Origin: Alistipes sp.
Lineage (GTDB): Bacteria > Bacteroidota > Bacteroidia > Bacteroidales > Rikenellaceae
Direction: 5' to 3'
NCBI GenBank assembly: GCA_017403125.1
Contig: JAFQOR010000024.1
Location: forward strand, 1-64,000
Length of the DNA stretch: 64,000 nucleotides
A program made the translations under genes and the position numbers. Positions 50,050 to 63,197 of the stretch are shown here, piece by piece. Within the stretch, counting starts at the first letter, position 1; the number at the start of each line of letters is the position of its first letter. Under the pieces are notes generated by a model. That model was given only the letters and a program-made list of their open reading frames with translations. It made no database searches and had not been told where the DNA came from.

Positions 50050-52179
50050 TTACTCCGAGATAATCTCCATAATCTTGATAGCGGCAGTTGCAACCGGAGT
50101 ACCGGGGCCGAAGATAGCCGCAGCACCATCCTGATACAACTCCTCGTAGTCCTGTGCGGGGATAACACCACCGACAACTACCACGATATCCTCTCTACCG
50201 AGCTTCTTCAACTCGGCGATAATCTGGGGAACAAGGGTGAGGTGACCGGCAGCAAGTGACGATACGCCTACAACGTGTACGTCGTTCTCGACAGCCTGCT
50301 TTGCAGCCTCCTCCGGAGTCTGGAACAAAGGACCCATATCCACGTCGAAGCCTATGTCGGCATAACCCGTAGCAACAACCTTGGCACCACGGTCGTGGCC
50401 GTCCTGACCCAACTTGGCAATCATGATACGGGGCTGACGGCCCTCCTTCTTTGCAAAGTCAGCACACATCTGCTTTGCCTTATCGAATGCTGAATCTGAT
50501 TTCACCTCTGCTGAATATACACCTGAATTCAAACGAATAACTGCCTTGTAGCGACCTACGATCTTCTCGCAGGCATCAGAGATTTCGCCCAACGATGCAC
50601 GTACCTTTGCGGCCTCAACAGCCAATGCGAGAAGGTTACCCTCGCCGGTGCGTACGCACTCGGTGATAGCATCCAATGCACGCTGTACGGCAGCGTTGTC
50701 GCGGTTGGCGCGGAGCTCCTGCAAACGCTTAACCTGGCTCTCGCGAACTGCGGTGTTGTCCACTGCGAGGATGTCGATAGGAGCCTCTTTCTCCAAACGG
50801 TAGCGGTTTACGCCGATGATAGTTTCAACACCAGAGTCGATGCGAGCCTGCTTACGTGCAGCTGCCTCCTCGATGCGGAGCTTGGGAATACCTGTCTCGA
50901 TAGCCTTTGCCATACCGCCCAACTCCTCAATCTCCTGGATGTGCTCCCATGCCTTGTGAGCAATCTCGTTGGTCAATGACTCAACGTAGTATGAGCCTGC
51001 CCATGGATCTGCCGAACGGCATACGTTGGTCTCCTCCTGAATATAGATCTGGGTGTTACGTGCGATACGTGCCGAGAAGTCGGTAGGAAGCGCAATGGCC
51101 TCATCCAGTGCGTTGGTGTGCAACGACTGTGTGTGACCCAAAGCTGCACCCATAGCCTCGATAGCCGTACGTGCTACGTTATTAAACGGATCCTGCTCGG
51201 TAAGTGACCAACCAGAGGTCTGTGAGTGGGTACGTAGTGCCAACGACTTGGGGTTCTTGGGCTCGAACTGCTTAACAATCTTTGCCCAAAGCAGACGTGC
51301 GGCACGCATCTTGGCAATCTCCATGAAGTGGTTCATGCCGATAGCCCAGAAGAATGACAAGCGAGGTGCAAAGGCATCAATCGACATGCCGGCATTGATA
51401 CCTGCACGCAGATACTCCAAACCATCTGCCAAGGTGTAAGCCAACTCGATGTCGGCGGTGGCACCAGCCTCCTGCATGTGGTATCCCGAGATAGAGATAG
51501 AGTTGAACTTGGGCATGTTCTTCGAGGTGTACTCAAAGATGTCGGCGATAATCTTCATCGAGAACTCGGGCGGATAGATATAGGTGTTACGCACCATGAA
51601 CTCCTTCAAGATATCGTTCTGGATGGTACCTGCCAACTGGTCAAGTGTACAACCCTGCTCCAAGCCGGCAACAATGTAGAATGCCAATACGGGAAGTACG
51701 GCACCATTCATTGTCATAGATACCGACATCTGGTCCAACGGAATACCGTTGAACAGCACCTTCATATCCTCAACCGAGCATATAGATACACCCGCCTTAC
51801 CTACGTCACCAACTACACGGGGGTGGTCGGCGTCGTAGCCACGGTGTGTTGCAAGGTCGAAGGCAACAGAAAGGCCCTTCTGACCGGCTGCAAGGTTACG
51901 GCGATAGAATGCGTTAGACTCCTCGGCAGTAGAGAAACCTGCATACTGACGAATGGTCCAGGGACGCATTACATACATTGTTGAGTAGGGACCGCGCAAG
52001 AAGGGAGCGATACCTGCTGCATAGTTAAGATGCTCCATGCCTTCGAGGTCGGCTGCGGTGTAGTTCTCCTTAACGGGAATGCGCTCGGCAGTCAACCAAT
52101 CCTCTTTGGGAGCGGTCTTCGTGGCGCAGCACTCTGCGGCTGCTGCCTTATATTCTAAGTCTGAAAATTTTGCTCTCAT
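50050..52179 (-). CDS. mutB: Methylmalonyl-CoA mutase, large (catalytic) subunit
   Basis: The 709-residue subunit has the TIM-barrel substrate domain ([31 protein letters not shown]) and a C-terminal cobalamin-binding domain with axial His595 in [11 protein letters not shown]. It interconverts succinyl-CoA and methylmalonyl-CoA, the key step of propionate production by the succinate route in Bacteroidales. It starts 12 bp after mutA and is translated from the same mRNA. No epimerase, decarboxylase or MeaB chaperone gene is adjacent. Confidence 0.97.
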
Positions 52180-52191
52180 TGTCGTAACTGA

Positions 52192-54042
52192 TTAGATGCC
52201 TAACTTCTTTAAGTAATCCTTCAATGTCTCCAAAACATTGCTCTTCACATTGATGAAGTTGCTAATGCCCTGTGCCTCCAACTCGGGAGCGCATGCGGGA
52301 GCACCTGCAACAACCAAGATAGCCTTGTCGCCGAGCAACTCCTTAACCTTGGGAGCTACGGTTGCGTAGTCATCGTCAGATGCACATACAACAACTATCT
52401 CTGCCTTCGATGCCACAGCTGCCTCTACGCCCTCCTCAACCGACTTGAAGAATGTGTTATCCTCAACGCGGATACCGGCGCATGCGAAGAAGTTACATGA
52501 GAACTGTGCGCGAGCACGTGCCATACCCAAAGTGCCACATGTGAGCATGAATGCCTTGGGCGTCTTGCCCGAACGATCAACCTTCAAGCGCATATCCTCG
52601 AATGCCATAGCGCCACGGTAGGGTACCAATACGTTACCCTCCTGTGCCTTGCGTGTAACGGCACACTCGCAGATATTCTTGTCGGCAACCTCCGTAAAGT
52701 TGGGATACTGGTTAGCACCCAAGAGAATAAGACGACGTGTTGCGATGCTCTTATCTTTTGCTGCTGCCGAAGCCTTAACGCGCTCTACGATGAAGCCCTC
52801 GCGGAAAGCAGCGATGTAACCGCCCTTATCCTCAATCTCGCGGAAGAGGGCCCATGCCTCCGATGCGATGCTCTTCGTGAGCGACTCGATGTAGTATGCA
52901 CCACCGGCAGGGTCGATAACCTGGTCGAAATGTGACTCATGCTTCAAGAGAAGCTGTGCATTGCGAGCGATGCGCTTCGAGAACTCGGTGGGAGCCTCAA
53001 ATGCGTAGTCGAAGGGCAATACCTCCAATGAGTGTACGCCGGCAATAGCTGCCGACATAGCCTCGGTTGTGCCACGCAACATGTTCACATAGGGATCGTA
53101 AACTGTCTGGTTCCATGTCGATGTTACTGCGTGTGCAATCATCTTGCATGAGCAGTTCTTCTCGGGGTTGTAGGCCTTAACGATGTTTGCCCAAAGCATA
53201 CGTGCTGCACGGAACTTTGCCATTTCGAGGAAGTAGTTCGACGTTACGGCAAAAGTGAAGCGTACTTTGCGAGCAACCTCGTCAATTGTAAGACCACGCT
53301 CCATGAGCTTTACGAGATACTCGTGAGCTGCGGCAAGCGTGAAACCGAGCTCCTCGACGATAGTCGAGCCTGCGTTCGAGAATGTAGCACCCGATACGTT
53401 TACCATCTTAACACGCTTGTAGTCTGCCGTAGCTTTGATGAGCTTCGCTATAGTATCGAAGCACTCGTCACCGGTCTTGCAGCAGAAGTCACCCTCGGTC
53501 GAGAGATCCTTGATGATGGGGTCGATGCAGAAGTTAAGACGGAGCTCATCCTTGGGCTGGTCGGCATACTTTGCCAAAACCTTCTCTGCCAAGGCTGCCA
53601 AGCCCTTAACGCTCGAACCACAGAATGTAAGTTCAACGGCTGTGGGCACGATGTCCTTCAACAACGCATCAACATCAACCTCGCAAGCGCATGACTTGCA
53701 GAAGCAGAAGCCGAGAGAATCTACGCCCGAGTTGAGCAACTTCAATGCCTCCTCGTTAGCGCTCTTTGCGCACTCTACGGCGATAGTCTGGTGAACGCGC
53801 CATGTGTTATCCTTCGAGATACCGCGTACGAAGGGGAATTCACCGGCCTCGGAACCGAGGAAATCAACCTCTGCGAGGTTCTCGGCACGATAGTAGGGAC
53901 GTACGTTAAATCCCTCTCCGGTCTTCCATACCAACTTGCGCTCGTAGTCGGCGCCTTTAAGGTCAGTTGTGATGACGGCCTCCCACTGCTCGGTTGTAAC
54001 CGGTGGGAACTCCGTAAACAACTTTTCTTTGGTATTAGCCAT
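52192..54042 (-). CDS. mutA: Methylmalonyl-CoA mutase, small subunit
   Basis: The 616-residue partner of MutB has a matching TIM-barrel region (GATFSNAGSTIVEELGFTLAAA; AFEAPTEFSKRIARNAQLLLKHESH shortened) and a C-terminal flavodoxin-like domain lacking the DxHxxG cobalamin motif, as expected of the non-catalytic subunit. It heads the operon. The predicted transcript start leaves a leader of roughly 145 nt without a recognisable cobalamin riboswitch. Confidence 0.95.
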   Translation of the reverse strand: MANTKEKLFTEFPPVTTEQWEAVITTDLKGADYERKLVWKTGEGFNVRPYYRAENLAEVDFLGSEAGEFPFVRGISKDNTWRVHQTIAVECAKSANEEALKLLNSGVDSLGFCFCKSCACEVDVDALLKDIVPTAVELTFCGSSVKGLAALAEKVLAKYADQPKDELRLNFCIDPIIKDLSTEGDFCCKTGDECFDTIAKLIKATADYKRVKMVNVSGATFSNAGSTIVEELGFTLAAAHEYLVKLMERGLTIDEVARKVRFTFAVTSNYFLEMAKFRAARMLWANIVKAYNPEKNCSCKMIAHAVTSTWNQTVYDPYVNMLRGTTEAMSAAIAGVHSLEVLPFDYAFEAPTEFSKRIARNAQLLLKHESHFDQVIDPAGGAYYIESLTKSIASEAWALFREIEDKGGYIAAFREGFIVERVKASAAAKDKSIATRRLILLGANQYPNFTEVADKNICECAVTRKAQEGNVLVPYRGAMAFEDMRLKVDRSGKTPKAFMLTCGTLGMARARAQFSCNFFACAGIRVEDNTFFKSVEEGVEAAVASKAEIVVVCASDDDYATVAPKVKELLGDKAILVVAGAPACAPELEAQGISNFINVKSNVLETLKDYLKKLGI

Positions 54043-54348: not shown

Positions 54349-55329
54349 TTACAACTCAATATTACACTCATCGCGGTCGTGCCAATCGGTAATCTGCGTA
54401 CCATTGTAATCGAATAGTGCCCATTGATTGTTGTTGCGCACCCACGAGTTTCCACTCTCGCAGTCATACTCTACAACCTCGTATATCACGGGGATGAGTA
54501 TATTTCCATCTCTGTCGATAAGACCCATCATGTGCCTATTATCGGCGACCATTGCGCGATTCTCGGCGAAGTCGCTAACGTAGCTATATTGTGCTCTTAT
54601 GACTTCGTTGCCCGCCTCATCTTCGAAACCCCAAAGCGACTCTCTGCTAATTGCTCGGCGACCCTCGATCACGGCTCGTAAACGAGGACTTGTGGTATAG
54701 CTACTGTTATTGTCGCATACGGTATTGTTCGATGCCAACTCTTTGGAGAATAGATCGTCGGGAGTCTCGCTTCGAATAATCTCGCGAATTTTGTCCAGAG
54801 CGACGTTGTCACCGCCAAAGCCCCTTGTTGTGTAGTATTGTCGTATTGGATGCAGATGTCCCTTATTATCTATTGTGAGGTTTTGTGGTGTTAGATTGTT
54901 GTGACTTATGTCGAGTGCTTTGAGTCGAGATTCCAAATCGTCGATGGCTTGCAATAGGCGTTGGCGACTGCCAAAGGGGATGACGTCGTGTAGCGTGGTC
55001 ACGGATTGCAGATACTCGATGGCAATTAGACACGAACTGTTGTTGATGGCCGATATCTCGATTTCGTCATGGAGTATCTTCATGCGTGTGCTGTTTGTAT
55101 CGATTTTGCCATTCAGCGCGAGGCTTGCATGGTGTAGCAGCGCCGTGGCGTCGATGCTTATTGGTGCATAGAGTATGACGGGAGTGTTGTTAAGCATCGC
55201 ATGACACTCGGCAAAGTGGGTTGTGCGATAGATACTCTCCATGTCTGCCTTGATGTCGTGTAGTCGGTGAAATTTCGTGCGCGGAGAGCTTAAAGCATCA
55301 CGAAAGCTTGAAATATTGCAGATATTCAT
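54349..55329 (-). CDS. Degenerate protein-kinase-like domain fused to WG repeats
   Basis: I do not know a named family for the whole 326-residue protein. Residues about 35-185 follow the order of a kinase fold: a hinge-like LIAIEYLQSVTTLHDVI (101-117), a helix, then ISHNNLTPQN (141-150) in place of the catalytic loop HRDLKPxN. The catalytic Asp is Asn144/145 and there is no DFG (PIRQ instead), so it should be inactive as a kinase. Residues 232-318 hold three WG-type beta repeats (LWGFEDEAGNEVI; MGLIDRDGNILIP; WALFDYNGTQI). No signal peptide. It is 6 bp after the vWA gene and is the last gene of the run. Confidence 0.6.
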   Translation of the reverse strand: MNICNISSFRDALSSPRTKFHRLHDIKADMESIYRTTHFAECHAMLNNTPVILYAPISIDATALLHHASLALNGKIDTNSTRMKILHDEIEISAINNSSCLIAIEYLQSVTTLHDVIPFGSRQRLLQAIDDLESRLKALDISHNNLTPQNLTIDNKGHLHPIRQYYTTRGFGGDNVALDKIREIIRSETPDDLFSKELASNNTVCDNNSSYTTSPRLRAVIEGRRAISRESLWGFEDEAGNEVIRAQYSYVSDFAENRAMVADNRHMMGLIDRDGNILIPVIYEVVEYDCESGNSWVRNNNQWALFDYNGTQITDWHDRDECNIEL

Positions 55330-55335
55330 CAGACG

Positions 55336-56199
55336 TTATAAATTGCAAAAGATGCTTTGCGACCCAATGTTAAGTACCATCATAAGCTCGCAAATAGAGC
55401 TATTGAAGGCTACGCCGCGATACGGCCCAACATACTTGGTGTTTGTTGCTTCGCGAATTAGAGGCTCCATGGATTTGGGCATGATGCTCGACATGTTGAA
55501 GAGCATGAGTTTGAAGCGATCGGGCGAGGTAAACTCCCTGTCTGGCGGAAAGAGTGTGTAGGTTGGTGATTGGTCGGTTGATAGATGTATATTAACAAAT
55601 AGCACATTGCCGTTTGCAGTGCCGAGCGACTTGATGCGGTCGCTGATAGTCAGGATATCATCCATGCTGCCGTCAGAGTAGCAACCGTCGGTGATGTGGA
55701 AGATTATGGGTGGGAAACTTTCACAATTTTCGGGACGTGCACACCACTTCTCGACAATGTCATATACGTGGTGTAGCGCCTCATACATCGGTGTTCTGCC
55801 GTGTGCTGTGGGCGTTATCCACTCGCCAATGTGATACTTTATGGTGGTCATATACTCTTCACACTCCGGATCGGTGAGGAAGCAGTATAGTTTCTGTGGA
55901 GGTTGATACTTGGCGAGTATGTCTATGGGTGTTAAGCCATCAATGGCATCGGGGAGTATATCTACAATGCCATCACCAGAGTATTGGACGACACCTATGT
56001 CGTAGTAGTTACGTACCTTGTCGTTGCGTGTAGCGCGAGCCAATAACTCATCGAGAATATAGTTGCAGACTATTGCTACGGCATCGGCCTTGCTCATCTG
56101 CAAGTGGTTGAACTTGATGCGCATCTGCATCGATGTTGAACAATCGATGGCTATAATAAAGGCCGTACGATGAAGATGGGTTATGGGTGTATCATACAT
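55336..56199 (-). CDS. vWA-domain protein (TerY-like) with intact MIDAS
   Basis: The 287-residue cytoplasmic protein is almost entirely one von Willebrand A domain. The metal-ion-dependent adhesion site is complete: D19-x-S21-x-S23 in IDCSTSM, Thr136 in GRTPMYEAL and Asp171 in HITDGCYSDGS. It resembles TerY-type vWA proteins, which in other bacteria are encoded with a PP2C phosphatase and a Ser/Thr kinase. Here the neighbour is a pseudokinase-WG protein (6 bp downstream) and no phosphatase is seen. Upstream, 3 bp away, is the nucleotidyltransferase gene. Role unknown. Confidence 0.8.
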   Translation of the reverse strand: MYDTPITHLHRTAFIIAIDCSTSMQMRIKFNHLQMSKADAVAIVCNYILDELLARATRNDKVRNYYDIGVVQYSGDGIVDILPDAIDGLTPIDILAKYQPPQKLYCFLTDPECEEYMTTIKYHIGEWITPTAHGRTPMYEALHHVYDIVEKWCARPENCESFPPIIFHITDGCYSDGSMDDILTISDRIKSLGTANGNVLFVNIHLSTDQSPTYTLFPPDREFTSPDRFKLMLFNMSSIMPKSMEPLIREATNTKYVGPYRGVAFNSSICELMMVLNIGSQSIFCNL

Positions 56200-56202
56200 A
56201 GG

Positions 56203-57324
56203 TTAATGTTTTATACCTTTGGGTTTAAGGAGATGGCTCCATGCCTGTGTTACGAAGCTATGAAGCTGACCTTCGCTATATACCAACTTACGCTTCCAGC
56301 GGTTTGCCCACCAACGGCGTGTTTTGAACCATATAATACGCAGTAGTCCACGTTTGGGTCGTGGTAGCGAAAATTCGGGTTCGAGCGTATCGTTTAGAAT
56401 ACGTATTTCGATGTCGTTGTGACGTTCGAACGAGCCAAATAGCTCACTGTCAATGCCACAAAGTCTTATTGCCAATCCATTCATCGCGTATGCAAAGCGC
56501 TCCATCTTATGTTCGGAACATATGCCGTAGAGCCACTGCCAATCAATACGCTGGTGATGTGTTCGTACGAACATTGCCCAATCGAAGATATGACGCAACA
56601 CAATCTCGGCTCCGGCGAAGTGTGCCGCAGCATGGCGCAGTAGGAAGAGCGCATGGAGATTTGCATTGGGGAGTTGAATTGTGGCGTTACCCACCGAGAT
56701 TATGTCGCCACCTTGCGATGCTGCTTGTTTAAGCTCCTGTTCAATCTTTCGGCTCGAAGTGTGGGCGTGTACGTTGATAAAGTCGTAGTGGTTCTCGATC
56801 ATCACGCCATCTATGTAGAATACCGTATGGTGGTGTACATCTTCGCTAATCTCGATGCGATACTTTGTGCGCAAGATGTCGTCGGCACGCTGCTGTTCGC
56901 CAGCTAACCATATATCTATGTCGCTCGATGTTCGGTGTGGGGGTGTGGGATAGCAGAGACTCAAACCATAGCCTTTGAGGATAGTCATCGTGATGCCCTC
57001 TTTTTGGTACATCTCTGCCAACTTTTCGATGACTGCCCTTTGGCGTGCATACCTCTTCTCTGCACCCTCGACGCTTAATGCCCATTTCAGGCGAATATCG
57101 CGTTGTGGGAGCAATGAATTATCTATGATACCTTGCTTGTGCAGCAACATAAGCCCATCCCATGCTATTGCTAACACGCCTTGGCGGGCAGCCAGTCTTG
57201 CCACTGCCTCCCAATTGGTTGTGGGGCATATCACGTCTGCCGACTCGGTGTCGGGGGGTTGGGTTAGGGCTGTATGTGAGAGTAGTAGTACGACCTTTGC
57301 CTGCTCCGTTTCGTAAGGTTTCAT
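56203..57324 (-). CDS. NTP_transf_5-type nucleotidyltransferase-fold protein
   Basis: The 373-residue protein has the nucleotidyltransferase-like motif ILKGYGLSLCYPTPPHR (residues 115-131) followed by SSDIDIWL with Asp135 and Asp137, and a later helical half including HALFLLRHAAAHF. Proteins of this Pfam type are common in exopolysaccharide and capsule loci, but no reaction has been assigned to them with confidence. The gene is 2 bp from the aminotransferase gene and 3 bp from the vWA gene, so all are on one transcript. Confidence 0.75.
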   Translation of the reverse strand: MKPYETEQAKVVLLLSHTALTQPPDTESADVICPTTNWEAVARLAARQGVLAIAWDGLMLLHKQGIIDNSLLPQRDIRLKWALSVEGAEKRYARQRAVIEKLAEMYQKEGITMTILKGYGLSLCYPTPPHRTSSDIDIWLAGEQQRADDILRTKYRIEISEDVHHHTVFYIDGVMIENHYDFINVHAHTSSRKIEQELKQAASQGGDIISVGNATIQLPNANLHALFLLRHAAAHFAGAEIVLRHIFDWAMFVRTHHQRIDWQWLYGICSEHKMERFAYAMNGLAIRLCGIDSELFGSFERHNDIEIRILNDTLEPEFSLPRPKRGLLRIIWFKTRRWWANRWKRKLVYSEGQLHSFVTQAWSHLLKPKGIKH

Positions 57325-57326
57325 CT

Positions 57327-58577
57327 CTATCGATAGACTATATTTTGCTCTATCTGTTCGACTATGTAACGAACATCATCCTCGGTAACGCAGGGCCCGC
57401 TCGGTAGGCAGAGCCCGCAGCGGAAGAGTCTCTCGCTAACGCCGTTTAGGTATGCCGGTGAGCCTTGGAACACGGGTTGTAGATGCATGGGCTTCCATAG
57501 TGGACGAGCCTCGATACCGGCGCTATCGAGAGCCATGCGTAGTGCTTCAACGTTGTTGTTAGGCTCGCAATCGGTATGCAACCTATCGGTTAGATGAATT
57601 GCTCCACCTGCGCCACCAACTGCCTTGGTAACAGCACTTTCGTATGCGTGTTCCTCGCCTTTGATACGTAGTTTCGAATCGAGCAATATGGTGCAAAGCC
57701 AATAGTTACTATCGTAGTCCGTTGTAGGGTTTTTGTGGAGCGTTATGCCCTCCATATCTTTGAACAATTCGTCGTAGAGAGCACATAATCTCTGATGGTG
57801 CTTAACATGCTCCTTTACTACGAGCATCTGACCTCGACCTATGCCGGCACAGATGTTCGACATGCGGTAGTTGTAGCCTATCTTCTCATGCTGATAGTAG
57901 GGGTATGCCTCGCGAGCCTGTGTGGCGTAGAACATTATTTGTTGCTTGTGTGCAACATCTGTGCATATCAGTGCTCCGCCCCCCGATGTTGTTATCATCT
58001 TGTTGCCGTTGAACGACAACACACCATACTCTCCGATGGTGCCACACATCTTGCCCTTGTAGCGTGAGCCAAGAGCCTCGGCAGCATCCTCGATTACGGG
58101 GATGCCATAACGCTTGCCAATCTCGACAATCTCATCGATGCGTGCAGGCATGCCGTAGAGATAGACTACGACAATAGCCTTGGGAAGTGGGCGACCCTGT
58201 GCCTGACGCTCTTTGATTGCATGCTCCAAAAGTTCGGGGCACATATTCCAACTCTCGGCCTCCGAGTCGATAAATATGGGGGTTGCACCGAGGTATGTAA
58301 TTGGGTTTGCCGAGGCGCAGAACGTAAACGATTGACACAGCACCTCATCACCCTGACCTACGCCACATGCGATGAGTGCGAGGTGTAGCGCTGCTGTGCC
58401 CGACGATAGTGCCACAACGCTCTTGTTGCCACCGACATACTCTTCGAGGTCTGCCTCGAACCCATTGACATTCGGACCGAGAGGTACGACCCAATTTGTG
58501 TCGAACGCCTCTTGGATAAACTTCTGCTCCTCGCCCGACATGTGAGCCAAGCAGAGATATATGCGTCTGTTCTGCAT
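57327..58577 (-). CDS. DegT/DnrJ/EryC1 sugar aminotransferase (PglE-like)
   Basis: The 416-residue PLP enzyme has the internal aldimine lysine K193 in LSFNGNKMITTSGGG, N-terminal LSSGTAALHLAL and VIEDAAEALGSRYKGKMCG. The MSGEEQKFIQEAFDTNWV start and NGNKMIT motif are typical of PglE/WecE-like enzymes that aminate C4 of UDP-4-keto-6-deoxy sugars. With the PglD- and PglC-type genes upstream it suggests synthesis of a 4-amino- or diamino-sugar. The matching 4,6-dehydratase is not in the window and may lie beyond the right edge. Confidence 0.88.
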   Translation of the reverse strand: MQNRRIYLCLAHMSGEEQKFIQEAFDTNWVVPLGPNVNGFEADLEEYVGGNKSVVALSSGTAALHLALIACGVGQGDEVLCQSFTFCASANPITYLGATPIFIDSEAESWNMCPELLEHAIKERQAQGRPLPKAIVVVYLYGMPARIDEIVEIGKRYGIPVIEDAAEALGSRYKGKMCGTIGEYGVLSFNGNKMITTSGGGALICTDVAHKQQIMFYATQAREAYPYYQHEKIGYNYRMSNICAGIGRGQMLVVKEHVKHHQRLCALYDELFKDMEGITLHKNPTTDYDSNYWLCTILLDSKLRIKGEEHAYESAVTKAVGGAGGAIHLTDRLHTDCEPNNNVEALRMALDSAGIEARPLWKPMHLQPVFQGSPAYLNGVSERLFRCGLCLPSGPCVTEDDVRYIVEQIEQNIVYR

Positions 58578-58610
58578 AACTAAAATATATTGGCTATAAA
58601 CCTTTTATAG

Positions 58611-59669
58611 TTAAACTTCGACGATATTGCTAATTTTGCAATCAACAAAAGGAACTATTGCCGTTGCCCAAGCCATGCCTACGCCAAAGGCGCTCAACAT
58701 TAGACGATGCGAGCCATTCAGTCTGCCTTGTAGCTCGCTTACGATGGTCAATGGAACCGATACGGATGAGGTATTACCAAACTTGCTTATCGACGAGGGA
58801 ATCTTGTTGGGGTCAAGTTTTAGTTTCTTGCTCAAATAGCTGTTTATGAAGTTGTTGGCTTGATGGAATACATAGTAGTCCATATCGTTTATCTCCTCTT
58901 GAGCTATGCTAAATAGTCGCTTGATGTCTTTTGGAATCTCAACTATCACGAAATTGAATACATCGCCTCCCATCATGTATCCTTGTTCGTCGCTACGTAT
59001 GTTGCCATGTTCATCTACGACTCTCTCGGCAAGTGTCTCCGCAGAGCTCATTTTGCGATAGCCGCCTCCGGGTATCATGATTAGCTCTCCGCGTGAGCCA
59101 TCCGAGTTCAGCGAGAAGTGGCTGGTGCCAAAACTATCATTTCGTTCGATTAGGGCGGCGACGCCACCATCGCCGAAGATGAATGCCGAGGTGCGATCCT
59201 TCGGCGAATAGACCTTCGAGCGGGTTTCGCCATCGAGTAGCAGCGCACGTCGAATACCAGATTGTGACATAAAAGAATATACGATGCTCAATCCATATAT
59301 GAAGCCCGAGCAGCCGAGGTTCACATCAAATGCAATAGTCGATTTTGGTAGTCCCAGGCGCTCTTGCAGCAGTATGGATGTTGCAGGCATACGATAGTCC
59401 GGAGTCTGTGAGATAAATACTACGAGGTCAATCTCGTCGCGAGGTATATTGTTATCCTCGATGAGTCTGTTTGCAGCGGCATAGCAGAGATCCGAGGCAC
59501 AGGTATTCTCATCAGCGAATCTACGCTCATATACGCCTATCTTATCAACTACCTTGCGCACCTCTTCGCTATCGAAGTGTTCGGTATATTTATAGTTATC
59601 AATGACACGTTTTGGCACAGCTGCTGCCAAGGCCGTTATGCCTATGTTTGTAAAGGAGAGTGTTGCCAT
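58611..59669 (-). CDS. FabH-like 3-oxoacyl-ACP synthase III (KAS III) in glycan locus
   Basis: The 352-residue thiolase-fold enzyme has the KAS III triad Cys120 (DVNLGCSGF), His269 (YVFHQANNFI) and Asn299 (FGNTSSVSV). It condenses a short acyl-CoA with malonyl-ACP. It lies among sugar genes, 33 bp before the aminotransferase gene and 4 bp after the SDR gene, and is therefore more likely a dedicated enzyme for a glycan acyl substituent than the housekeeping FabH. Confidence 0.88.
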   Translation of the reverse strand: MATLSFTNIGITALAAAVPKRVIDNYKYTEHFDSEEVRKVVDKIGVYERRFADENTCASDLCYAAANRLIEDNNIPRDEIDLVVFISQTPDYRMPATSILLQERLGLPKSTIAFDVNLGCSGFIYGLSIVYSFMSQSGIRRALLLDGETRSKVYSPKDRTSAFIFGDGGVAALIERNDSFGTSHFSLNSDGSRGELIMIPGGGYRKMSSAETLAERVVDEHGNIRSDEQGYMMGGDVFNFVIVEIPKDIKRLFSIAQEEINDMDYYVFHQANNFINSYLSKKLKLDPNKIPSSISKFGNTSSVSVPLTIVSELQGRLNGSHRLMLSAFGVGMAWATAIVPFVDCKISNIVEV

Positions 59670-59673
59670 TGTC

Positions 59674-60426
59674 CTAATTTAGTGTACGTCCACCATCAAT
59701 TATAAGTTCTGTACCTGTCACCCATTCGCTCGCATCGCTCAACAGATAGACTGCTGCGTGTGCAACGTCTTCGGGACGACCAAAGCGTTTCAACGGATAG
59801 AGTTCGAGGTTCTTTTCCCACTGCTCTGTGGTTATTGCACTCTTATTCTGTTTGAGAGGGGTTTCAACCATTCCGGGTAGAATAGCATTGCATCGTATCT
59901 TTTTCGATGATAGCTCCAATGCCGCCTCTCGCATGAACGAGCATAGGGCACCTTTGGTTGCCGAGTATATTGAGTTACCCGGCGAACATACTTTATATCC
60001 GGCGATTGATGCCACGAAGACGAGTGATGAGGGTTTGTTCAGTCGCTTGCGTTTTACCAATAGGTGGGTAAGCATTATCGCCGCCTCGACATTTGTTCTA
60101 AACATCTCCTCAACCTCGCCATGCTTGATGAATGGTATGAGTTGCAGGGAGTTGTATCCGGCACAATGTACGCAGCCATCAATCGTGGGAAGTTCTGATA
60201 CAAGGTGTTCGATATGCTCTTGTTGCGTAAGGTCGGCAACAATATATTGGTGTCCATCGCCCTCCATCTCTTCTATCACCTTCGAGAGTCGCTCTTCGTT
60301 GCGTGCCGTAAGAATGACCTTTGCCCCCATCTTGGCGCAGACCAGCGCCGTCGCACGACCTATGCCCGATGATGCACCCGTGATTAGAATGTGCTTGCGG
60401 TTAAGTGAAAAAGGATTATACACCAT
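59674..60426 (-). CDS. FabG-like SDR (3-oxoacyl-ACP reductase type) in glycan locus
   Basis: The 250-residue classical SDR has TGASSGIGRA (residues 16-25), CAG at 88-90, catalytic Tyr154 and Lys158 in IYSATKG, and the C-terminal FabG-like ending WVTGTELIIDGGRTL. ARN near residue 41 suggests NADPH. It sits between the ACP and KAS III genes, so reduction of a 3-oxoacyl-ACP to 3-hydroxyacyl-ACP is the natural reading. A sugar-reductase role is the alternative. Confidence 0.85.
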   Translation of the reverse strand: MVYNPFSLNRKHILITGASSGIGRATALVCAKMGAKVILTARNEERLSKVIEEMEGDGHQYIVADLTQQEHIEHLVSELPTIDGCVHCAGYNSLQLIPFIKHGEVEEMFRTNVEAAIMLTHLLVKRKRLNKPSSLVFVASIAGYKVCSPGNSIYSATKGALCSFMREAALELSSKKIRCNAILPGMVETPLKQNKSAITTEQWEKNLELYPLKRFGRPEDVAHAAVYLLSDASEWVTGTELIIDGGRTLN

Positions 60427-60449
60427 ATGTCGTTCGAAACAAAAAGTTG

Positions 60450-60680
60450 TTATGATAGGCTCTTTACGGTATTAAAGAGATCCTCGATAGTGACGGCATT
60501 GCGAATGTCGTCGCCACGAAGCGCTACGTCGTACTCCTCATCTACCATTGCAATCACCGAGAGGGCGATAAGCGAGCTCCATTCATCCAAATCGTGGAAT
60601 TTGGTATCGGCGTTAAACATGCTTGCATCAGTCTCCTCAAAGAGGTATGACATGTTCTCAATGAATTTGTTTAGTTCCAT
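60450..60680 (-). CDS. Acyl carrier protein-like protein
   Basis: The start is at 60680 (MELNKFIENMSYLF), where ACP homology begins; the frame to 60707 adds nine Lys/Ile residues. The 76-residue acidic helical protein has the ACP core DEWSSLIALSVIAMVDEEYDV, with Ser36 as the likely phosphopantetheine site. The usual DSL is SSL here, so the Asp before the Ser is replaced; many stand-alone ACPs in specialised clusters vary at this point. It is 23 bp before the SDR gene. Confidence 0.8.
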   Translation of the reverse strand: MELNKFIENMSYLFEETDASMFNADTKFHDLDEWSSLIALSVIAMVDEEYDVALRGDDIRNAVTIEDLFNTVKSLS

Positions 60681-60716
60681 AATAGTTATTATCTTTTTGT
60701 TCTTCAATTGCTAAAT

Positions 60717-61361
60717 TTAGTAACGGAATATCTTTGCCGGGTTGCCCATGTAGAGCTCTCCCTCTTTGGGCTTGGTCATCAATACTGCTCCGGCGCCGAG
60801 TCTGGTGTTATTACCTATTTTTAGTTGTTGCAAAACTATTGAGCCAACTCCAAAGAAGTTGCAGTCGCCGATATGAACTTCGCCCGATATGCGAACTGCG
60901 GGCATAAACGTGTTGTATGACCCTACTACGTCATCATGTCCGAGACACACCGAACTGTTCAACAGATTAAAGTTGCCGATGCTGACATTGCATGTAGCAC
61001 TGCATCCCCCCTGAATGATGTTACCTTGACCTATGCTGAATGTTTTGCTGTCGCCAATCGTAAAGTTGGGGTGGATAAGGTTGGGAAACTCGATTCTCGG
61101 GTTTAGGATTTGTTGGCTGATTTTGTGTACCACACCGGGATTTCCGATGGCGATAACAACGCAGAGTGTTTCGTCCCATCTGTTCAAATCGTCCAGTCCT
61201 CCCAATATCGAGCCAAAGTGTGAAATAGCTTCGCCTCGCTCTTTGCCATCATCGAAAAAACCGATTAACTCCCATGTGGGGTTGGCTTCGTTGATGCGGT
61301 TTATGAGGCATGCTACTTCGCGCCCAAGGCCACCTCCACCATATATTGCAATACGTTTCAT
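60717..61361 (-). CDS. NeuD/PglD-family sugar acyltransferase (left-handed beta-helix)
   Basis: The start is at 61361 (MKRIAIYGGGGLGREVACL). The upstream start at 61385 would overlap the previous gene. The 214-residue protein has a Rossmann-like sugar-nucleotide domain (GGGGLGRE; FFDDG) followed by hexapeptide repeats forming a left-handed beta-helix from about residue 95 (IGQGNIIQGGCSATCNVSIG; SVCLGHDDVVG, with the catalytic-type His). Such enzymes N-acylate amino sugars, usually from acetyl-CoA. Here, with an ACP gene 36 bp downstream, an ACP-borne acyl donor is possible. Confidence 0.85.
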   Translation of the reverse strand: MKRIAIYGGGGLGREVACLINRINEANPTWELIGFFDDGKERGEAISHFGSILGGLDDLNRWDETLCVVIAIGNPGVVHKISQQILNPRIEFPNLIHPNFTIGDSKTFSIGQGNIIQGGCSATCNVSIGNFNLLNSSVCLGHDDVVGSYNTFMPAVRISGEVHIGDCNFFGVGSIVLQQLKIGNNTRLGAGAVLMTKPKEGELYMGNPAKIFRY

Positions 61362-61368
61362 GTCTATT

Positions 61369-61977
61369 TTAGTTATTTCCGTCAAATGCTTCGGTTGTTA
61401 CGGACGTTATTGATGTGATATCGGAGCGTCGTAACACCTTTTTTAAGGTTAGCCACACAATCTTGCAATCCACAACGAACGATACGTTACGCACGTACCA
61501 TACGTCCAACTCAAACTTCTTGCCCCACGATATAGCATTGCGACCGTTTACCTGTGCCCAGCCCGTGATGCCAGGGCGTATATCATGGCGGTGTGCCTGC
61601 TCCTCGCTATATAACGGCAGGTATCTTACGAGTAGCGGACGTGGTCCTATGAGCGACATATCGCCTTTGAGTACGTTTAGTAGCTGTGGCAACTCGTCAA
61701 TCGATGTTGAGCGTACGAAGCGTCCAGCCTTTGTCAGACGTTGGGCGTCGGACAGAAGATTGCCGTCGGCATCCCTCTCGTCGGTCATCGACTTAAACTT
61801 TATAAGACGAAAAACCTTTGCATCTTTTCCGGGGCGCTCCTGCCAAAATATGGCGCCGGCACCCTTGTTGGCAAACGTGAGCCATAGGGTAACGACGATA
61901 AGTAGCGGCGATAGCAGTAGCAGCATGCTCGCCGATACTACGATGTCGATAAGGCGCTTTATGAAGTGTTTGTACAT
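61369..61977 (-). CDS. Initiating sugar-phosphate transferase (PglC-like, monotopic)
   Basis: The 202-residue protein is a small phosphoglycosyl transferase of the bacterial sugar transferase family. It has one N-terminal membrane hairpin (about residues 8-35), FRLIKFKSMTDERDADG, the Asp-Glu dyad in STSIDELPQLLNVL, and SLIGPRPLLV. It moves a sugar-1-phosphate from a UDP-sugar to undecaprenyl phosphate, starting glycan assembly on the inner membrane. It is 2 bp after the GT4 gene. Confidence 0.92.
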   Translation of the reverse strand: MYKHFIKRLIDIVVSASMLLLLSPLLIVVTLWLTFANKGAGAIFWQERPGKDAKVFRLIKFKSMTDERDADGNLLSDAQRLTKAGRFVRSTSIDELPQLLNVLKGDMSLIGPRPLLVRYLPLYSEEQAHRHDIRPGITGWAQVNGRNAISWGKKFELDVWYVRNVSFVVDCKIVWLTLKKVLRRSDITSITSVTTEAFDGNN

Positions 61978-61979
61978 TG

Positions 61980-63197
61980 CTATTTTGTTATGGGGTTAAG
62001 GTGCTTTACAATAGCACTATATGTGTGCTCTGTCAGATAGTTGCCTACGAGGAATCTGTATCCTCGTTCGCCCATTTCTGCTATCTGTTCTGTCGAGGCG
62101 AGCATCTTGTCCAACATGGCACTAAACCTCTCCACATCGCAACTCTCGCACCACAATCCGTAGCCATTCTGCTCGGCTATCGTGCCTATGTCGCTGTTAG
62201 AATCGGTTGCTGCAACTATGGGCATGCGGTTTTCCAGATAGGATAGTAGTCGCGAGGGATAGTTAGGTATGGTGAAGCGATGGTCGAGAAATATCATCCC
62301 TACGTCGCAAGCAGCCACCAGCATGTCGTATTCGGCCTTGGGGAGTGCGCCGATGAGTGTTACGTTTTCGGGGTGCTGCTCCCTTGTCCAGCGCTCAACC
62401 TTGGCATACTCGGTGCCGCTACCTACGATGAGGAAGTGGCAGTCACGACGCTTGCTGTTTCGTTGCAATGCTCGGCACATGAAGTCTATGCCTTGGGGCT
62501 TGCCGATATTCCCTCCATATATAAATATAGGTCTGTCTGTGGGTAATCCATATTTTTGACGTATCGCTCGACGCTCTATTGTCACCTTATCCGTCGGTAG
62601 CTCGATGCTGTTTGGAGCAACTTCAATGCGTCGCACATCGAGCTTTGGATTGTGCTTGACAATAAAATCGACGTTTGCAGGCGACATACAGCCTATGTAG
62701 TCGCTCATGCGGTACAACATCCTCTCCTTATGTCGAAAGTAGCCATAGAGAGGTGACCACTTGGCAAACATCCCCAAATCAACGGCATTCTGCGGAAATA
62801 TATCTTTGAGCAGAAGGTAGCTTATGCAGTGTGGTGAGCGCTGTTTTATGGAGCGTATGACCGACGTAAAGGTTACCGGAGGTGTGGAGTAGAGCACAAG
62901 GTCGAACTCCACATCGTTCCAATATCGTTTGATTGCACGTCGAAACTGTCGTTCGATAAGTAGCGTTGCTATGCCCTTCTCTACAACGTTTGTCTTTTGC
63001 AGATTTAGCGTTTTAATGCTCAATATCCTGACTCCACAACGCTCCTCCTCGCATGTCGTCTGCCCATAACGTCGCTCGTTGGGGTGGGCGATATACACGT
63101 TGTGTCCCTCGTCGCGAAATTTGCGCATAAGGTCGGCATATATTCCGCGCGTTGAGATGTCGGTTAGTCGCGATATGGTAAGAAACAGAACGTTCAT
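61980..63197 (-). CDS. Glycosyltransferase family 4 protein
   Basis: The 405-residue GT-B protein has an N-terminal acceptor domain (MNVLFLTISRLTDISTRGIY) and a C-terminal nucleotide-sugar domain with FIYGGNIGKPQGID, LIVGSGTEYAKVE, IGALPKAEYDMLVAACDVGM and SRLLSYLENRMPIVA, the GT4 (WbuB/WbnG-like) pattern. It probably adds the second sugar, often N-acetyl-fucosamine in loci with WecB-type epimerases. Confidence 0.88.
   Translation of the reverse strand: MNVLFLTISRLTDISTRGIYADLMRKFRDEGHNVYIAHPNERRYGQTTCEEERCGVRILSIKTLNLQKTNVVEKGIATLLIERQFRRAIKRYWNDVEFDLVLYSTPPVTFTSVIRSIKQRSPHCISYLLLKDIFPQNAVDLGMFAKWSPLYGYFRHKERMLYRMSDYIGCMSPANVDFIVKHNPKLDVRRIEVAPNSIELPTDKVTIERRAIRQKYGLPTDRPIFIYGGNIGKPQGIDFMCRALQRNSKRRDCHFLIVGSGTEYAKVERWTREQHPENVTLIGALPKAEYDMLVAACDVGMIFLDHRFTIPNYPSRLLSYLENRMPIVAATDSNSDIGTIAEQNGYGLWCESCDVERFSAMLDKMLASTEQIAEMGERGYRFLVGNYLTEHTYSAIVKHLNPITK

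Follow-up and report, generated by a model that had tools for sequence, protein, structure and literature searches.

Why should a surface-polysaccharide locus carry its own small set of fatty-acid-synthesis genes? The question is raised by a 64,000-nucleotide stretch of an Alistipes sp. genome (assembly GCA_017403125.1, contig JAFQOR010000024.1, positions 1 to 64,000; hereafter the window), in which genes for a stand-alone acyl carrier protein (ACP), a short-chain dehydrogenase/reductase (SDR) and a type III ketoacyl-ACP synthase (KAS III) lie between an N-acyltransferase gene of the NeuD/PglD type and a PglE-like aminotransferase gene. An initial annotation, made from the letters alone, had proposed that the locus makes a surface sugar bearing a custom N-acyl group delivered from ACP. 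Our analysis supports this proposal through the non-housekeeping character of the trio, a PglF-like gene in the same locus, and parallels in Pseudomonas syringae and Flavobacterium psychrophilum; we put the probability that an ACP-borne acyl group, of whatever chain length, is placed on an amino sugar at roughly 0.7. The arrangement is already in print for Flavobacterium, and in part for P. syringae, and the window locus is a further case. Its main interest is that the acyl module is widespread and apparently exchangeable among Bacteroidales. Non-acetyl N-acyl groups on surface sugars alter antibody recognition and plausibly recognition by phages and host lectins.

The acyl module and its proteins

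Nine consecutive genes, all on the minus strand, run from 56203 past the window end (64000), with gaps of 2, 33, 4, 23, 36, 7, 2 and 25 bp when ATG 60680 is taken as the start of the ACP and ATG 61361 as that of the PglD-like gene. This tight run is as the initial annotation described it. The span it assigned to the element, 57327–61977, holds the six genes listed here; the nine-gene run, and the locus as a whole, which continues on the same strand to 75112, both exceed it.

57327–58577, minus strand: PglE-like UDP-4-keto-sugar aminotransferase (DegT family, 305.6 bits)
58611–59669, minus strand: dedicated KAS III of group B1, with Cys120, His269 and Asn299 present
59674–60426, minus strand: SDR, FabG-like ketoreductase (adh_short_C2, 175.2 bits; YxxxK motif)
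60450–60680, minus strand: stand-alone ACP with Ser36, identified by its homologues (Pfam score below cut-off)
60717–61361, minus strand: NeuD/PglD-type hexapeptide N-acyltransferase (TIGR03570, PglD_N), a putative acyl-ACP:UDP-Qui2NAc4N acyltransferase
61369–61977, minus strand: PglC-like initiating phosphoglycosyltransferase (PGT; sugar-1-phosphate transferase; Bac_transf, 206.6 bits), likened to PglC by role and size

Family models and alignments bear out the gene identities and active-site residues that had been read by eye. The open reading frame (ORF) of the ACP, as listed, opens with TTG at 60707 and has an ATG at 60680. The protein scores 17.1 bits against PF00550 (cut-off 20.8, E 0.0067); the ACP at the equivalent place in the same-genus locus L096 is likewise below the Pfam cut-off, at 18.2 bits, and the ACP adjoining the KAS III of same-genus L100, 44% identical to the window ACP, is above it at 29.9 bits. 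Ser36 is serine in 128 of 128 aligned rows (124 distinct sequences), the rows having been gathered by profile from fetched loci, with the window's own sequence included twice.

The three catalytic-site residues of the KAS III do not vary when the window protein is aligned with eight close relatives. Against the fabH model TIGR00747 it scores 210.9 bits, below the cut-off of 292.1. A tree of 59 KAS III proteins falls into three groups (A, B1 and B2). The window protein belongs to B1, and its nearest relative is a same-genus copy (73% identity); the genome's two other FabH-like proteins fall apart from it, on long branches that make their placement unsure. The SDR scores below cut-off with each of the 25 NCBIfam models shown, those for FabG included.

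On the sugar side, the PglD-like protein reaches 162.0 bits against TIGR03570 (cut-off 160.8; scored on the longer ORF starting at 61385) and contains a PglD_N domain. Its closest solved structures are VioB 7txp, 4m9c and 4m98, and its His142, presumably the catalytic histidine, is retained in 79 of the 82 homologue rows aligned. The PglE-like protein is below the cut-off of a LegC-family model (349.5 bits vs. 420), and its best solved-structure matches are 1o61/1o62/1o69 and 4ztc, which we take to be Campylobacter PglE.

Since the protein families of the trio are those of fatty acid synthesis, it could be argued that the genome's housekeeping set simply happens to be located here. The initial annotation had worried that these might be the only fab copies in the genome. 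They are not: three KAS III genes were found (PF08541, E ≤ 0.001) in a genome that is 88% complete. The one on C27 scores 309.6 bits against the fabH model, above the cut-off, and is followed by a fabF above its own cut-off and then by an SDR assigned without model scores, while the third genomic KAS III scores 195.5 bits against the fabH model. On C21, an ACP above the acyl carrier model cut-offs adjoins a second fabF above cut-off. Because the fabH-fabF-SDR and acpP-fabF genes are present, the trio is not housekeeping. The window ACP, moreover, is found in just 6 of 200 family genomes (E ≤ 1e-5, own genome included). We regard the chance-location explanation as contradicted unless the C27 and C21 copies are inactive, and give it very little credence.

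On C19 of this genome (L018:6655-13965), a 2436-residue two-module nonribosomal peptide synthetase, with two condensation, two adenylation and two carrier stretches and a terminal reductase-like domain, is followed by a gene for a MatE-type transporter.

Recurrence of the module in other genomes

Beyond the family, the ACP was found in 62 of 395 class genomes (E ≤ 1e-7) and the KAS III in 45 of 393 order genomes (E ≤ 1e-75), own genome included in both counts; seven order genomes besides our own carry the KAS III at 62–69% identity. Neighborhoods were examined at 40 other places (5 of 5 family genomes, 22 of 44 order genomes and 13 of 61 class genomes), mostly the best-scoring ones. A search of gene order of the kind that the initial annotation had suggested finds the cassette again in L096, L098, L101 and others. 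The window order PGT-PglD-ACP-SDR-KAS III-PglE is kept in L096 (same genus) and L098 (same family), the same gene set with two KAS is present in L097 (same family), and in L101 (same class) the order reads FnlA-FnlB-FnlC-glycosyltransferase-PGT-PglD-ACP-SDR-KAS III-PglE-PglF. Relative to the window, the sugar-side proteins of L096 are close (PGT 72%, PglE 74%, ACP 68%) and those of the acyl side distant (KAS III 35%, PglD-like 23%), which looks like a swap of the acyl part. As a contrast, we used ten order-level loci with group B2 KAS III, chosen by similarity rank (L104–L113). An SDR is present in all ten and an ACP in nine, PglD-like and PGT matches occur in none, and a PglE-like match (26–33% identity) is found in three; these loci perhaps serve another acyl pathway.

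The counts that follow concern the best 80 of 305 confirmed loci from a profile scan whose query was built from nine aligned B1 KAS III proteins. None of the 80 was dropped, and 6 kb of sequence was available on both sides in 56. Some duplication exists: KAS III proteins are identical in L088/L191, L084/L192 and L151/L152, and some genomes occur in two sets. Counting same-strand genes no more than 2.5 kb away, 70 of the 80 loci have an ACP and 77 an SDR, so the module layout is more than chance. A PglD-like gene was found within 5.5 kb in 48, or in 58 at up to 6 kb with profile matches added. Thirty loci have a PGT at 50% identity or more, and 21 a PglE at 45% or more. Twelve loci have ACP, SDR, PglD-like, PGT and PglE genes all near the KAS III, including Flavobacterium suaedae (L178), Chryseosolibacter histidini (L198) and Bacteroides faecichinchillae (L132), in whose record the PglE-like gene is split over two frames. 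Within 5 kb there is one KAS III copy in 59 loci, two in 20 and three in one. L124 (uncultured Bacteroides) has a layout close to that of the window: PGT-PglD-ACP-KAS (41%)-SDR-KAS (76%), then an ATP-grasp gene, two ORFs resembling the aldo/keto reductase of L125, and PglE.

A PglD-like gene of the close type was found in 29 of the 80 loci. The sugar genes accompany it: a PGT of at least 50% identity occurs in 24 of 29 close-type vs. 7 of 29 distant-type loci (Fisher 1.5e-5), and, among loci with a PglE-like match, PglE reaches at least 45% in 15 of 15 vs. 3 of 11 (Fisher 1.1e-4), both values being indicative only since the loci are related. The idea that each KAS III group goes strictly with one type of acyltransferase was considered and rejected; B1 occurs with both close and distant PglD-like genes.

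Searching from the PglD-like protein instead returned 20 matches besides the window, seven in 200 family genomes (E ≤ 1e-15) and 13 in 393 order genomes (E ≤ 1e-25). Seven of the nine matches at E ≤ 1e-55, a line drawn after the matches were known, have an ACP and a KAS III on their own strand no more than 6 kb away. None of the 11 weaker matches has both within that distance; one of them, which has an in-frame stop, neighbors the module of a better match at distances of 5.1 and 6.1 kb, and two are on contigs shorter than 9 kb. The window-type acyltransferase thus appears to have a tendency to travel with the acyl module.

Two further observations concern the KAS III relatives. An enlarged module is present in L145 (4142–7985), where genes for an AMP-binding enzyme, an additional KAS and a transporter of the citrate/sulfate type precede the B1 KAS III; L135 has ORFs of similar size and start. 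Separately, KAS III proteins 66–72% identical to the window's occur in seven records (L143, L161, L167, L184, L189, L190 and L196) titled as Opitutales, Fibrobacteraceae, Akkermansia, Chlorobiaceae, Chlorobium and Ignavibacteriaceae. Either wide transfer or mis-binned contigs could account for these.

Proposed pathway, acyl acceptor and chain length

The sugar that would receive the acyl group can be predicted from the remainder of the locus, most of which lies beyond the window on the same contig (C22, numbered identically to the window). The other features are as follows:

56203–57324, minus strand: NTP_transf_5 gene (PF14907, 135.6 bits)
61980–63197, minus strand: glycosyltransferase (Glycos_transf_1), in the position of WfpA of F. 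psychrophilum
63223–64404 on C22, minus strand, crossing the window end: FnlC/WecB-like 2-epimerase (TIGR00236, 216.4 bits, cut-off 210.15, whole gene)
C22:64441–65469, minus strand: membrane acyltransferase (Acyl_transf_3)
C22:65480–66688, minus strand: FnlB-like reductase (WbcJ model as best match, 358.8 bits, under the cut-off of 500)
C22:66711–67784, minus strand: FnlA-like protein (best match at 563.7 bits, under the cut-off of 730)
C22:67798–69057 and 69045–70046, minus strand: two glycosyltransferases
C22:70053–71237, minus strand: Wzy_C-domain protein
C22:71243–72544, minus strand: Wzx-like flippase
C22:72577–74493, minus strand: PglF-like dehydratase, 638 residues
C22:74531–75112, minus strand: UpxY antiterminator at the head of the locus (NF033644, 130.5 bits, cut-off 100)

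Taken together, these genes read as a Wzx/Wzy-type surface-polysaccharide locus. By family models and solved relatives, PglC-, PglD-, PglE- and PglF-like genes are all present in it, and the PglF-like gene would supply, from outside the window, the dehydratase step needed by the PglE-like enzyme. Of the three N-acetylfucosamine (FucNAc) genes, FnlC is above its cut-off, and the FnlA-like and FnlB-like genes have best matches that are below theirs. The glycosyltransferase at 61980–63197 is 47% identical to the one at the equivalent place in L101. The NTP_transf_5 gene, 2 bp downstream of the PglE-like gene, is probably on the same transcript.

An UpxY-family antiterminator at the head of the locus is a mark of UpxY-regulated Bacteroidales capsule loci. 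An invertible promoter between inverted repeats is common, though not universal, in such loci; no inverted repeats of at least 12 bp were found in the 701 bp extending upstream from the first codons of UpxY. At the locus tail, two more minus-strand genes 3–6 bp apart occupy 54349–56199 of the window, one with WG repeats (PF14903) and the other of 287 residues with no Pfam match. Beside the locus, at 50050–54042 on the minus strand, two ORFs (709 and 616 amino acids) resemble methylmalonyl-CoA mutase subunits, as judged by eye.

We propose the following scheme, in which every enzymatic step is drawn from protein families and two published precedents. The PglF-like dehydratase and PglE-like aminotransferase would convert UDP-N-acetylglucosamine (UDP-GlcNAc) to UDP-Qui2NAc4N. 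On the dedicated ACP, the KAS III would join a primer to malonyl-ACP by condensation; reduction of the product by the SDR would give a 3-hydroxyacyl-ACP, from which the PglD-like enzyme would transfer the acyl group to the 4-amino group of UDP-Qui2NAc4N. The PglC-like transferase would then load the acylated sugar on undecaprenyl phosphate, starting the repeat unit, and the WfpA-like glycosyltransferase would add L-FucNAc, the product of the FnlA-, FnlB- and FnlC-like enzymes. Further glycosyltransferases would finish the unit, Wzx would export it and Wzy would polymerize it. Four-carbon (C4) 3-hydroxybutyryl is favored as the acyl group because the locus has one KAS III, as in P. syringae, and F. 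psychrophilum, with two KAS, makes a six-carbon (C6) chain; by this analogy we give C4 about an even chance.

Several observations weigh against this scheme or against its C4 form. The 80 KAS III loci are mutually related and a few genomes are counted twice, so the counts are not independent. In 22 of these loci no PglD-like gene was detected within 6 kb, in some of them through contig ends. L099 and L100, two of the five other ACP-bearing family genomes, have ACP, SDR and KAS III with no PglD-like match nearby, and two of the nine close PglD homologues, one on a 5.8 kb contig, are without the module. The 22 loci leave some room for the view that the PglD-like enzyme only acetylates from acetyl-CoA, like Campylobacter PglD, which is an acetyltransferase (PMC6519341), and that the acyl group made by the trio goes elsewhere in the glycan, for example onto another sugar via the Acyl_transf_3 gene within the locus (C22:64441–65469). 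We consider this improbable, given that the trio is flanked by PglD- and PglE-like genes, that seven of nine close PglD homologues accompany ACP and KAS III, and that both published parallels put the acyl group on a 4-amino group.

As to chain length, the use of KAS number as a guide to C4 rests on two published cases, and the closest relatives of the acyltransferase point the other way. The four closest (L183, L180, L225 and L124) are all in two-KAS loci, as are, with two or more KAS genes, five of the seven module-bearing PglD matches. B1 KAS III adjoins a B2 KAS in L084 and L086. The window KAS III is also without the Trp found in the same genome's FabH, at a place in the CoA loop that we take to have a role in coenzyme A (CoA) binding, and its primer may therefore not be acetyl-CoA. 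These points would suit a longer product of the same module, 3,5-dihydroxyhexanoyl as in F. psychrophilum, which is a sub-case of the ACP-borne-acyl explanation and would arise if the KAS III acted twice or lengthened a primer supplied by general fatty acid synthesis, for example 3-hydroxybutyryl-ACP. We hold the C6 product to be possible but rather unlikely: the window locus has a single KAS III, F. psychrophilum uses two KAS for its C6 chain (PMC6519341), P. syringae has one KAS III for its C4 chain (PMC3927599), and the one-KAS form is the commoner among the 80 loci (59).

Returning to transfer from ACP to an amino sugar as the preferred explanation, we tentatively suggest, with rather less than even confidence, that gut Bacteroidales capsule loci carry an exchangeable miniature type II synthase whose acyl product forms a combinatorial antigen layer. 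One to three KAS would set acyl length and differing PglD types would match the amino sugars, the window being the one-KAS form acting on Qui2NAc4N. If KAS number does prove to set acyl length, this part of glycan chemistry would be readable from the genome.

Comparison with known systems

The initial annotation had pointed to the viosamine island of P. syringae, and that parallel holds, with one KAS III, a reductase, an ACP and an acyltransferase (PMC3927599). The island comprises vioS, vioB, vioR and acp together with vioA, and makes 3-hydroxybutyryl-viosamine; by mass spectrometry, a vioR mutant no longer has the modified sugar, and the roles assigned to vioS and acp are based on homology (PMC3927599). 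In gene content, which was compared rather than the proteins, the island and the window locus share one KAS III, a reductase, an ACP, an acyltransferase and an aminotransferase. The acceptors probably differ: it is dTDP-viosamine on flagellin in P. syringae, whereas the window sugar genes look to be of the UDP-GlcNAc type (UDP-Qui2NAc4N, in a Wzx/Wzy polysaccharide), so an acceptor other than dTDP-viosamine is expected.

Some capsule types of Acinetobacter baumannii include QuiNAc4N with a 3-hydroxybutanoyl group (QuiNAc4NHb), the same sugar as the proposed window product or a similar one, associated with qhbCB/gdr modules (PMC9676051, PMC3628348). The passages of these reports that describe the module give it as qhbCB/gdr and name no ACP or KAS gene. 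For Bacteroides or Alistipes capsule loci, no ACP modules were evident in literature searches judged without full texts.

A closer parallel, from within the Bacteroidota and unnamed in the initial annotation, is the O-polysaccharide (wfp) locus of F. psychrophilum. As described there, wfpB encodes a PglC homologue, wfpD an ACP, wfpC and wfpE two KAS, wfpF a reductase and wfpG a PglD homologue, along with pglE, pglF and three FucNAc genes (PMC6519341). The acyl group is 3,5-dihydroxyhexanoyl on Qui2NAc4N, based on nuclear magnetic resonance and earlier chemistry cited in that report, and Cisar and colleagues infer, as the initial annotation did for the window locus, its transfer from ACP by the PglD homologue; strains with different R-group genes differ in lipopolysaccharide antigenicity (PMC6519341). 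The likeness, drawn from the published description rather than from protein comparison, extends to PglC-, PglD-, PglE- and PglF-like genes, an ACP, a KAS and a ketoacyl-ACP reductase, as well as to a WbuB-like glycosyltransferase and, probably, to three FucNAc genes (two here below cut-off). Two differences stand out: the F. psychrophilum cluster has two rml genes, whereas none are among the genes annotated here between 56203 and 75112, and it has two KAS genes for its C6 acyl group, in contrast to the one KAS III of the window locus.

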